Shown: positions 4,007 to 16,709 of the stretch, in pieces
How positions within the stretch are numbered: the first letter of the stretch is position 1
Layout of the letters: every line of letters begins with the position of its first letter
Origin: a virus
Length of the DNA: 64,000 bases
Direction: 5' to 3' (one strand)
Virus record (IMG/VR): IMGVR_UViG_3300030098_004824
Location: 1 to 64,000 of that record
Made by a program: the position numbers and the translations under genes
Notes under the pieces: model-generated
Databases searched by the model: none
Seen by the model: the letters and a program-made list of their open reading frames with translations, nothing else
Told to the model about the DNA's origin: nothing

Positions 4007-4035
4007 GGGGGATCGCCTAAAGTGTTCCAGTAGTG
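4007..4035 (+). repeat. 29-bp intergenic element, copy 1
   Basis: First of nine gap-free copies. GGGGATCG at element positions 2-9, TAAA at 12-15 and GT at 18-19 are intact; the downstream segment is TCCAGTAG instead of the T/A-rich consensus. It lies just after the exported protein gene and ahead of the structured non-coding region. Confidence 0.85.
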
Positions 4036-4480
4036 AGAAACAGTTGAGGGTCAAACTACTCTGACAGTTTTGAGAGGGATATGTGGTTCTACTGCCCGAA
4101 CATTCCAAGATTTCCTATATCCACATTAGTGCGAAGAAATGGTTATCTTATTAAGATCTCCTATACCAACACGAAGTTGAAGAAATGGTTATCTGATTAG
4201 TAGGGGTTCAGGTGTAAGCGATTCCCAGTAGGTAAATTTGGGCATATAGGTGAAACCTATGTCGATGCCCCACTCCCTCTCAAACAAGAAGCAGAGACAT
4301 GACGTTTGATTAAAATGACTTACCCCTCAATGTTTCTCCCACTAATTTGGGCAAGGATCTATGGTTGTCTCTGTTCAGCAGAGAAATTACGTCCTGTAAG
4401 TCCCACACACAAAAACGAGGAGATGGATGTGCCTCTGGGATCGCAACCCAAGAAAGAACTAACATCCGCTAGCTTTTTTA
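4020..4480 (+). ncRNA. Candidate structured RNA, about 460 nt
   Basis: No convincing ORF covers this stretch before 4492; the frame open from 4306 is not protein-like until MAYHHEW. The sequence is less AT-rich than its surroundings and full of complementary segments. AGTAGT 4030-4035 pairs with ACTACT, enclosing TTGA-GGG-TCAA. ATGTGG and CCACAT flank a 30-nt interior. GGGC(AT)...GCCC at about 4239-4273 encloses ATAGGT-GAA-ACCTAT. TCTCTG-TTCAG-CAGAGA lies near 4367-4383. AAGAAATGGTTATCT occurs twice. The segment ends near a T-rich run at about 4474-4490. Transcription could start at the copy-1 element. Class unknown. Confidence 0.5.
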
Positions 4481-4491
4481 TTATTTTTTCA

Positions 4492-4662
4492 ATGGCATAC
4501 CACCATGAATGGAGTCAATCTTATTTTAATGGATTGACGTTTGAAGAACACCACATCAATAATGAGTGGTTTAATGGCACATTGTCAATGTTAAAAGATG
4601 ATGGTATATTATATGTACCAGTTCTTGACAAAGAATTTAACAGACAAGGTGAGGAAGTATGA
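4492..4662 (+). CDS. Small hypothetical protein
   Basis: A 56-aa ORF starting at ATG 4492 (MAYHHEWSQSYFNGLTFEEH...). It is acidic and aromatic-rich, with no known domain. There is no evident Shine-Dalgarno, only a T-rich run before the ATG. Its TGA overlaps the ATG of the next gene (ATGA at 4659), supporting both. Confidence 0.6.
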   Translation: MAYHHEWSQSYFNGLTFEEHHINNEWFNGTLSMLKDDGILYVPVLDKEFNRQGEEV

Positions 4663-4781
4663 CTGAAAAACATTTTATTAACAAAACTGATGAAATGATT
4701 GAAGATTTCATCGAAGAATGTGAAAAGGAAGCATCAAAATTAGAAGTCACAGTTGACTATTATCTTGCCGAGTTTGTTTGA
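4659..4781 (+). CDS. 40-aa acidic helical protein
   Basis: MTEKHFINKTDEMIEDFIEECEKEASKLEVTVDYYLAEFV: strongly acidic, likely one or two helices. It starts in an ATGA overlap. Its last codons and stop lie inside the terminator hairpin, with the TGA in the loop. Function unknown. Confidence 0.6.
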   Translation: MTEKHFINKTDEMIEDFIEECEKEASKLEVTVDYYLAEFV

Positions 4782-4797
4782 CAAACTCGGTTTTTTT
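4768..4797 (+). terminator. Strong Rho-independent terminator
   Basis: CCGAGTTTG (4768-4776) pairs perfectly with CAAACTCGG (4782-4790) across a 5-nt loop, followed by seven T (4791-4797). It overlaps the 3' end of the 40-aa gene and the downstream promoter. Confidence 0.92.
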
Positions 4798-4806
4798 CTT
4801 TATAAT
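4778..4806 (+). promoter_or_regulatory. Consensus sigma-70 promoter embedded in terminator
   Basis: TTGACA (4778-4783), exactly 17 bp, then TATAAT (4801-4806): full consensus for host RNA polymerase with its main sigma factor. The -35 lies in the loop and 3' arm of the terminator. The first gene served begins at 4832. An early transcript is likely. Confidence 0.88.
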
Positions 4807-4831
4807 ACATACTATTAGTGAATACAAAACT

Positions 4832-5047
4832 ATGGCAGAAAAACTTTATACCATTTTAGAATTATCTACTAATGGTTGGCATCCAATAGAAGGAGAGGAT
4901 GTACAAATATCTAAAGCAAAATGTGATGAACGTATTAAATATCATTTGGGAAAGGGAGTTTCTCCTGAAAGATTAAAAGCAGTTGTTGATAACAGAAATC
5001 TTGGTAAAAAGGAGTTAGATTTTACAATTACAGGCGATACTGAGTAA
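4832..5047 (+). CDS. Small conserved-looking cyanophage protein
   Basis: A 71-aa soluble protein (MAEKLYTILELSTNGWHPIEG...). The ATG at 4832 is chosen over the upstream in-frame start because the latter would begin inside the terminator, before the promoter -10. It is the first gene of a host-type promoter unit and overlaps the next gene at TAATG (5047). Similar proteins of about 70 aa occur in T4-like cyanophages from memory. Role unknown. Confidence 0.75.
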   Translation: MAEKLYTILELSTNGWHPIEGEDVQISKAKCDERIKYHLGKGVSPERLKAVVDNRNLGKKELDFTITGDTE

Positions 5048-15101: not shown

Positions 15102-15349
15102 TGGAATTAACTTCAAAAGATGGGAATATGGTTGTTGATTTCTATCCAATTAAGGACTGGAATAATAACATCGATCCGACTAATCGTATGTTAAAAGTAT
15201 TATCTTTCAGAGGTGATATGCAAAAGAAAATGTTAATTAGTAAGATTGAATTTTATTCACAAGTAAAAGAGTATATTAACACCTATAAGTATAAGATAAC
15301 AAGCGAATATATGCCAGCACAGTATTATTCAGAAGAGGTAATATTATGA
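15101..15349 (+). CDS. Small hypothetical protein
   Basis: An 82-aa protein preceded by GGAGG. Beta-rich N-terminus (NMVVDFYPIKDWNNN), Lys/Tyr-rich C-terminus. Overlaps the neighbours on both sides (TAATG, ATGA), so one operon. Unknown. Confidence 0.6.
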   Translation: MELTSKDGNMVVDFYPIKDWNNNIDPTNRMLKVLSFRGDMQKKMLISKIEFYSQVKEYINTYKYKITSEYMPAQYYSEEVIL

Positions 15350-15519
15350 TTAAAAAGTATATCTCCCCGATTGATAATTGCGAGTTTGATTATCAAATAG
15401 TCAACGGCAATTTATCATATAAGATAGAAGGAACTGACTGGCAAGATTTCATATTAGAAGATAAAAGAGCATATTCACCAGAACAATATGCAGAATTTCT
15501 ATCACTTTTGGAGGTATAA
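15346..15519 (+). CDS. 57-aa hypothetical protein
   Basis: MIKKYISPIDNCEFDYQIVN and on to ...YAEFLSLLEV. ATGA overlap with the upstream gene; its 3' end carries the GGAGG used by the next gene. Unknown. Confidence 0.6.
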   Translation: MIKKYISPIDNCEFDYQIVNGNLSYKIEGTDWQDFILEDKRAYSPEQYAEFLSLLEV

Positions 15520-15523
15520 TAGT

Positions 15524-15682
15524 ATGAGAACATTACACTTAACTAATCAACAATTTGACGTACTATATCACATATTAGAAGATACAGTTCTTGATATTGA
15601 AGAAGATGTAGTTAGTGATACTGTAACCTATCAAATTTACAAACAATTAATTCATTTAAAAGGAGGTAAATTCAATGACTAA
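15524..15682 (+). CDS. 52-aa acidic helical protein
   Basis: Starts MRTLHLTNQQFDVLYHILED at ATG 15524, with GGAGG 9 bp upstream. Acidic (EEDVVSD). Overlaps the next gene by 8 bp. Unknown. Confidence 0.6.
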   Translation: MRTLHLTNQQFDVLYHILEDTVLDIEEDVVSDTVTYQIYKQLIHLKGGKFND

Positions 15683-16031
15683 GTATCAACAAAGTGCAAA
15701 TCCAAATGCAACTAATAGTGAATTAGATGCAAAACAGATTATAACACATAAGGAGTTAAATCCTAGTCAAAGAAGTAAACTAATTGAACAGTATGTAGAG
15801 TTAGTTGTTGATAATATGGACGTTAAATCTATGATGCAATTTATCACTGAAGAGTTAGAAATTAGGTATCGAAATGATTATACAGATGTTGAATTAAGAG
15901 AAGAAATTAATAACTTTGATGAGGAATTATATGATGAGTTAGTTGATAACGTAACACAACAATACCCTAAACAAGATGTTAAACAGAGTCTTAATCAGAT
16001 GGAAACATTTATACCAAATTTCCACGATTAA
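15675..16031 (+). CDS. Hypothetical protein
   Basis: A 118-aa, acidic, mostly helical protein with GGAGG upstream. The segment LVVDNMDVKSMMQFITEELE is similar in pattern to IIVDQMSDNEIIEYVTKDIE of the 12956 gene product, so the two probably share a small domain. It is the last gene before the DnaA-box region. Confidence 0.65.
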   Translation: MTKYQQSANPNATNSELDAKQIITHKELNPSQRSKLIEQYVELVVDNMDVKSMMQFITEELEIRYRNDYTDVELREEINNFDEELYDELVDNVTQQYPKQDVKQSLNQMETFIPNFHD

Positions 16032-16500
16032 GAAGGTATTATTAACAATCAGAGAAGGTATATTAGGTATAGTGTGTAATAACCAAATACAGAGAGTTTT
16101 CCACAGATATTAACACTAACTGTGGAAAACTTAGTGTTTTTAGTGTTAAATAGCGTTTTAAATGCCATTATAAATATACATCTGTTTTGTAAAGGTTTTC
16201 CACAATGTTGTTAATAACTGTGTGTAATATGTGGAATAAGTGTTAATAAGGGGGTTTATATTGTGGATTAATTGTTGATAAGTAAGGTGATAATTAATGT
16301 CTCTAAATGTCATTATTTCTTGTGATCTTAGCGAGCGTATTATAACACGAACGCCCGAAATATGTCAAGGATTTATGATATTTTCTGTCATAAGTCTGTC
16401 AGGGTTTTTCCACATTTTTCCGTTATAATATGCACAGAGTTCTTGACAACAACTCCGTTTAATCTTATAATGAATAGTATCACCCACCCAGGACAATCCA
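16032..16500. other. AT-rich intergenic region with DnaA-box cluster (candidate origin)
   Basis: Contains four exact TTTTCCACA 9-mers, the DnaA-box sequence described for cyanobacteria: 16097-16105 (+), 16121-16129 (-), 16196-16204 (+) and 16406-16414 (+). Two near matches are at 16230-16238 (-, TATTCCACA) and 16262-16270 (-, TAATCCACA). The first pair forms a 12-bp inverted repeat (16095-16106 / 16120-16131). Between boxes the DNA is extremely AT-rich, as a duplex-unwinding element would be. No ORF was seen. Use as a replication origin by host DnaA is inference; the first dyad could instead act as a terminator hairpin. Confidence 0.55.
16443..16471 (+). promoter_or_regulatory. Consensus sigma-70 promoter
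   Basis: TTGACA (16443-16448), 17 bp, TATAAT (16466-16471): perfect consensus, 29 bp before the ATG at 16501. The -35 lies in the loop of a GAGTT/AACTC dyad (16437-16441 / 16451-16455). Confidence 0.88.
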
Positions 16501-16674
16501 ATGGCAGTTACTAACAACAACTGGACGAAGACTAAGTATAGAATAACGTTGGAATTAGATGTGTTTGATGACTTTAATCCCAGACAAATTGCGTGGGGTA
16601 AAGTGTTAGATTTGGGTGGATCTGAACACGTAGAAAGTTATATCGAAGACCTGTCTAATCCTGTGAGGTGGTGA
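16501..16674 (+). CDS. 57-aa protein driven by a strong promoter
   Basis: MAVTNNNWTKTKYRITLELD and on to ...YIEDLSNPVRW. Small, mixed alpha/beta. It is the only gene between a perfect host-type promoter and repeat copy 9, so probably expressed very early. Function unknown; a host-takeover peptide is one possibility. Confidence 0.6.
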   Translation: MAVTNNNWTKTKYRITLELDVFDDFNPRQIAWGKVLDLGGSEHVESYIEDLSNPVRW

Positions 16675-16680
16675 TAACAA

Positions 16681-16709
16681 AGGGGATCGAATAAAGTGTC
16701 CTATTAGTG
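16681..16709 (+). repeat. 29-bp intergenic element, copy 9
   Basis: The first G is replaced by A; otherwise GGGGATCG, TAAA, GTGT and TG are intact, with CCTATTAG. The following bases AGTGTAAGCGA can pair with TCGTTAACACT (to about 16750), a leader hairpin as at other copies. Confidence 0.85.

Follow-up and report, generated by a model that had tools for sequence, protein, structure and literature searches.

Candidate modular promoters with lineage-specific boxes, and a putatively head-packaged protein that may read them, in T4-like marine cyanophages

T4-like cyanophages lack MotA and AsiA, the way in which their early and middle genes are switched on has been described as unclear, and they are thought to use the host RNA polymerase (RNAP) (PMC2984593). 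In T4, the MotA/AsiA-dependent middle promoters carry a phage-specific box upstream of a core, which is read by a phage protein and repeated before gene groups. T4-like phages also contain repeated intergenic regulatory cassettes termed PeSL, described as an early promoter plus a stem-loop (PMC4503421). Here we analyse a repeated 29-base-pair (bp) element that resembles the former in its layout and its placement before gene groups, and the latter in being repeated between genes. It lies in a 64,000-nucleotide stretch of viral DNA (hereafter the window), which is part of the 77.6-kb IMG/VR record IMGVR_UViG_3300030098_004824. Taking all the evidence together, we consider it probable that the copies are modular promoters read by a factor that is made late, packaged in the head and injected. 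No matching description of the element or of the candidate factor protein was found in the open-licence literature searched.

The first-pass annotation had reported nine ungapped 29-bp copies, and all nine were recovered at the same positions, aligning without gaps. They lie on the + strand at 4007–4035 (box GGGGGATCG at 4007–4015, core at 4016–4035, predicted RNA 5' end at 4035), 5388–5416, 6348–6376, 7423–7451, 10247–10275, 11669–11697, 13166–13194, 14421–14449 and 16681–16709. The pattern GGGGATCGNNTAAANNGT has nine exact matches, all on the + strand, and none further in the whole 77.6-kb record, against a chance expectation of about 0.0005 for the window. Allowing up to three mismatches gave 11 matches versus 2.8 expected, and a position weight matrix scored the nine copies at 40–46 bits and the next best window site at 6.8. 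Position 1 is G in eight of the nine copies (A in the copy at 16681) and position 17 is T or C, while AAA at 13–15, G18 and T19 are invariant. The copies fall between gene groups, as the annotation had described: the stop codon of the upstream gene lies at −6 to 0, or at 27 within the element, and every copy precedes the next gene group. Its claim that the element is absent from 1–4 kb and from the late block of the window also held in the record search.

The element is modular, consisting of a conserved core and a lineage-specific box. The core (positions 10–33, AAAGYGTYCYTATAGTR) is shared by many marine cyanomyoviruses, and the box occupies the upstream 9 bp (positions 1–9, GGGGGATCG in the window). 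A core-only scan of IMG/VR, which required AAA at 13–15, brought the set to at least 622 distinct copies in at least 156 loci. Among the matches listed, 101 loci have three or more copies, and these loci carry at least 32 consensus boxes. Box mismatches averaged 0.45 of 9 positions within a locus and 4.60 of 9 between loci (minimum of 200 shuffles, 4.62), whereas the corresponding values for the core were 2.86 and 3.55 of 18. G18 is unvarying among the matches listed and C8, T19, T25 and T28 are nearly so. Because the box is lineage-specific, the exact window box is essentially absent from other phages, in which the core is widespread with other boxes; a scan with the window's own box returned 15 single matches, apparently due to chance except that in locus L021. 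In loci L241, L191, L238, L176, L061 and L091 a lone copy with a foreign box stands in an otherwise uniform array, which suggests recent transfer of a promoter plus its gene.

The window virus is a T4-like cyanomyovirus whose relatives include S-SM2, the single-cell virus AG-345-O18 and P-TIM68, and these show the same arrangement. Twelve copies occur in S-SM2 and nine in AG-345-O18, and in both the box GGGGGATCG is replaced by GGGGGGTCG or a sequence very close to it. De novo repeat searches recovered copies in register in SynMITS9220M01 (12, box TTACTCACC), P-TIM68 (13, box TTAGTTACC) and AG-345-E15 (3, box ACTGAAGCG). In whole genomes the element is restricted to one block and one strand (about 43–58 of 191 kb in S-SM2), and roughly 2–14 sites per genome were seen. 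No exact match to the core motif was found in bacterial genomes. The element was not found in Syn9, P-SSM7, S-TIM4 or the searched region of P-SSM2, which have other repeats instead. A different repeated palindrome, roughly TGTGCCAGTTnnnnAACTGGCACA, separates early genes or lies at their ends in P-SSM2 (L028), P-SSM7 (L099) and S-TIM4 (L100), and Syn9 (L098) carries its own repeat TCGTGTATTCTATAAGAGTCAAAGG 5' of early genes at 36332, 37259, 38598, 41043 and 43036.

Start codons are placed around the element in a striking pattern. Among the 600 copies listed, an open-frame ATG begins exactly at position 29 in 174; 23 open ATGs lie at +1 to +13 and 300 at +14 to +24, with almost none upstream. 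When ATG occupies position 29 it opens a reading frame in 175 of 193 copies, compared with 23 of 80 for ATA and 84 of 224 for GTA (29–38%). A29 and G31 show a strong association (Fisher P = 2e-50), although some of the copies are related by descent. For the GC71 family, the alignment of the S-SM2 protein with the window homologue begins at the methionine at position 29, and independent annotation puts starts at position 29 in S-SM2 and SynMITS9220M01. Since start codons occur at 29 or at least 14 nucleotides (nt) downstream and hardly in between, we infer that the mRNA 5' end lies at position 29, or perhaps 3–5 nt upstream, so that the mRNAs would either be leaderless or have enough leader for a ribosome site.

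The best candidate for the protein that reads the box is a basic protein of 185 amino acids (aa) encoded within the array at 5784–6341 (+). The copy at 5388 heads the gene group that contains its gene, and the copy at 6348 begins 6 nt past it, with the next gene starting 14 nt after position 29. The factor of S-SM2 is SSM2_065 (49522–50103 of its record). We scored 33 early-region families for tracking of the box across 127 box-typed loci. Among the well-sampled families, the factor tracked the box best, with an area under the curve (AUC) of 0.84 (n = 58, 23 boxes), compared with 0.54 for the helicase, 0.65 for GC71 and 0.63 for the adjacent 74-aa gene. The signal resides in the C-terminal approximately 50 aa, whose AUC rose to 0.95 (Mantel test, 0/2000) and which form visible classes by box. 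Among 36 non-redundant factors, the C-terminal part correlated with box identity at r = −0.72 (permutation P < 1/5000), in contrast to r = −0.02 (P = 0.32) for the N-terminal part. This co-variation is consistent with the C-terminal domain being a DNA-binding domain that reads the box. Few families are present in all element-bearing genomes compared yet absent from Syn9, P-SSM7 and S-TIM4; these include a 67-aa protein just upstream of the factor (5562–5765, +) and a 68-aa protein (1663–1869, +), and a 57-aa protein (16501–16674, +) is present in nearly all element-bearing genomes compared. These three proteins and an ImmA-like protein were considered as box readers and rejected, since they are present but their similarity does not follow the box.

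Additionally, the search was run in the opposite direction, from the protein to the DNA. When 50,697 phage records were searched by tblastn, the factor turned up solely in the known element bearers and three further isolates. One of these, S-B05, has two elements with box TTACTCACC, the box also carried by the phages closest to S-B05 in the factor C-terminus. In IMG/VR, 41 loci without overlap with the earlier DNA were found by the factor protein alone. The element was present in 39 of them, as 113 copies all on the strand of the gene, with none in reversed controls. The box was then predicted in 36 of these loci, a set biased towards GGGG-type boxes, from the nearest neighbour of each C-terminus; the prediction was exact in 42%, within one mismatch in 67% and within two in 78%. 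The mean mismatch of the predicted box was 1.36 for C-terminal neighbours, 2.42 for N-terminal neighbours and 3.77 for random pairs.

The other end of the factor carries a different signal. Its N-terminus in the window, MKTFHQFIAE|V, resembles the T4 capsid targeting sequence, and the N-termini fit MK(T/S/N)(F/L)xxFxxE(A/V/L) in all 54 factors bar one with a truncated start, with F7 and E10 in 54/54, F or L at position 4 and mostly I, M or V at position 8. In the targeting sequence of T4 IPIII, residues 4 and 7 direct encapsidation and residues 8 and 10 direct cleavage, and gp21 cuts after L/I-x-E (PMC9026906). The factor thus has the expected residues at all four positions, and the window encodes the corresponding prohead protease, a gp21-type head maturation protease at 61269–61919 (+; phrog_207, E = 1.1e-82) that would cleave after LxE/IxE of the targeting sequence. 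Unrelated proteins of element-bearing phages share this N-terminal motif. The factor gene is also preceded by a late-type promoter, GATAAATA at 5757–5764 (+), 27 nt upstream, even though it sits in a block rich in the candidate promoters. The TAAATA late-promoter motif occurs no more than 60 nt before the factor gene in 48/48 loci, compared with 0–4% for most other families and 17/17 for the late gene gp25 as control. These features suggest a factor that would be packaged in the head and injected with the DNA. As a separate observation, a 50-aa early-block gene (45981–46133 of the S-SM2 record, and homologues) resembles the factor gene and gp25 in that 12 of 14 loci show a promoter motif of the late type.

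We also searched for dedicated transcription machinery. MotA (PF09158) was absent from S-SM2, SynMITS9220M01, P-TIM68 and G001, with a positive T4 control (E = 7e-71), which agrees with the annotation's view that the element is not a T4 MotA box. T7-like RNAP (PF00940) was not found (P-SSP7 control, E = 2.7e-69), and neither was multi-subunit beta-type RNAP (PF00562; controls positive 14/14), a search that very divergent enzymes could escape. A gp55-like sigma-region match is present. Given the lack of MotA and of both RNAP types in these searches, and the presence of the gp55-like match, host RNAP is the default candidate. Identity with T4 middle promoters was rejected, as MotA was not found in these phages, GGGGGATCG and the many unrelated boxes of relatives take the place of a TGCTTTA-like box near −30, and the predicted start geometry is incompatible.

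In the account that we favour, each copy would be a roughly 28-bp promoter whose transcripts begin at the purine at position 29 or no more than a few nt away from it, some of the mRNAs being leaderless. The lineage-specific box at 1–9 would be read by the C-terminal domain of the approximately 190-aa basic protein. This factor would be made late, targeted into the head by its N-terminal capsid-targeting sequence and trimmed by gp21, and it would then be injected with the DNA, making the promoters of the incoming genome usable at once. The factor would activate rather than repress, the timing would be early, and the transcribing enzyme would most likely be host RNAP. We incline, if only slightly, to the further view that the factor represents a new family of head-carried promoter-specificity proteins, with a hypervariable C-terminus, a lineage-private box, a core unlike that of sigma-70 promoters, and leaderless or short-leader early mRNAs.

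Several alternatives were weighed against this account. The elements could be host sigma-70 promoters in which TATAGT (23–28) is the −10 hexamer, the G-rich box binds an activator in place of a −35 and transcription starts near 35, as in T4 middle promoters. TATAGT does resemble TATAAT, the distance between box and hexamer suits a MotA-like layout, and cyanophages are presumed to use host RNAP (PMC2984593). Yet a sigma-70 −10 hexamer is expected about 7 nt before the 5' end, and TATAGT abuts the predicted one: with a 5' end at or just before 29, a hexamer at 23–28 is too close, and transcription from near 35 would cut off the genuine start codons at 29. The equivalent of the −11 A is only 73% conserved, against 97–100% for T25, T28 and the purine at 29, and MotA is absent. 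We therefore judge this reading unlikely. The annotation had itself proposed phage-specific promoters, middle or early, with a novel box in place of a −35 and a T/A-rich octamer often containing a −10-like hexamer. The promoter class and the box fit the evidence very well; the −10-like hexamer does not, given the start codons at 29 and their near absence over the following 13 nt. The swapping of the box between phages and the co-varying protein came to light only through comparison with relatives. A very improbable alternative is an RNA-level element, that is, an intercistronic RNase cut before 29 giving leaderless mRNAs, or a stabilising hairpin. The predicted 5' end could indeed be a processed end, and many copies of the GGGGGG type allow a weak hairpin to be drawn, in which C/T changes lie opposite G. 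However, compensatory changes are lacking except for a rare A-T at one pair, a T-T mismatch is constant, other phages have unrelated boxes in place of the 5' arm, no hairpin is predicted for the window copy at 11669, the distance to the start codon is highly variable, and no Rfam match was found.

The factor might instead bind the boxes without starting transcription, as a stoperator-like repressor or to organise or package the DNA. Many same-strand intergenic sites with lineage-specific boxes, and a basic, apparently head-internal protein, would suit this idea, which the initiation-like features of the core, the start codons at +1 and a number of sites per genome too low for condensation make quite improbable. 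It is rather unlikely, too, that the correlation between protein and box reflects linkage or shared descent, with another protein reading the box. The factor gene does adjoin an element, and two small neighbouring families, 48778 and 49081 (n = 17 and 19), also track the box highly, but the adjacent 74-aa gene and the factor's own N-terminus do not follow it, and the helicase and GC71, which lie on the same contigs, show little or no such tracking. The behaviour of these two small families counts against the account favoured here, as do the following points. The pairing is not one-to-one, since L241 and L350 break the rule linking C-terminus and box, and foreign box copies occur in several loci. 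No window copy has ATG at 29, the transcription start being deduced solely from start codons, and we know of no sigma factor or RNAP mechanism that uses TATAGT directly before the start. Comparison of the factor with Pfam, PHROG, PDB sequences and PDB folds gave no convincing match, so homology gives no support for DNA binding. The structure model has a small confident C-terminal helical region (predicted local distance difference test, pLDDT, about 92–95) and is mostly of low confidence elsewhere; the model obtained by single-sequence prediction for a factor of the TTACTCACC type was poor.

Other features of the window were also recorded. It encodes T4-type baseplate, sheath, terminase, portal and prohead genes. 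Two giant open reading frames of 4583 and 2540 aa lie at 21606–35357 and 36940–44562, and their S-SM2 counterparts are annotated as gp7 baseplate wedge and VrlC-like. A near-identical 28-bp repeat, TAATACTCAAAAATT[CT]AGTTAGTATTCA, occurs at 17264–17291 and 17323–17350, an offset of 59 bp, where long open reading frames are absent, and a T-rich repeat, CTGTCCTTTATTATTACTT, is found at 13434 and 14912, shortly 5' of two small genes.

The element offers a candidate answer to how early and middle genes are switched on in these phages, and for the cultured S-SM2, SynMITS9220M01, P-TIM68 and S-B05 it specifies the gene, the box that goes with it and where transcription is predicted to start. If true, it would represent a new route by which a phage takes over transcription at injection, and a private transcription code for each lineage, which rivalry among coinfecting phages, or satellites, may have driven. 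The at least 32 box types would then form a natural set of protein/DNA specificity pairs that diverged together, of use for studying DNA recognition by small domains and for building orthogonal promoters in cyanobacteria.

Compared with T4 middle promoters, the element has an unrelated box, diversified between phages, and another predicted start geometry, and no MotA was found; moreover, MotA is an early product, whereas the factor appears to be late and head-packaged. Compared with PeSL cassettes as described in PMC4503421, the element has no conserved stem-loop and its box is matched to one protein. Identity with PeSL was rejected because the stem-loop has no compensatory support and its arm is replaced in other lineages. 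The factor is like the injected T4 proteins IPI–III and Alt in its capsid-targeting N-terminus, gp21-type site, basic character, late promoter and fast-evolving C-terminal part, yet sequence-specific DNA binding is not known for the internal proteins, and Alt modifies RNAP and does not read promoters. The N4-type virion RNAP likewise delivers early transcription machinery with the virion to dedicated promoters; here, in contrast, the candidate is a small, putatively DNA-binding protein, with no RNAP family and no conserved hairpin found. Herpesvirus VP16 is a packaged activator acting at immediate-early promoters, an analogy of function only, as it is an unrelated protein of a eukaryotic host. 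Finally, the stoperators of mycobacteriophages are many same-strand sites that diverge between phages together with their cognate repressor; they repress in temperate phages, whereas the sites described here have the appearance of promoters, and the phages that carry them are considered lytic.

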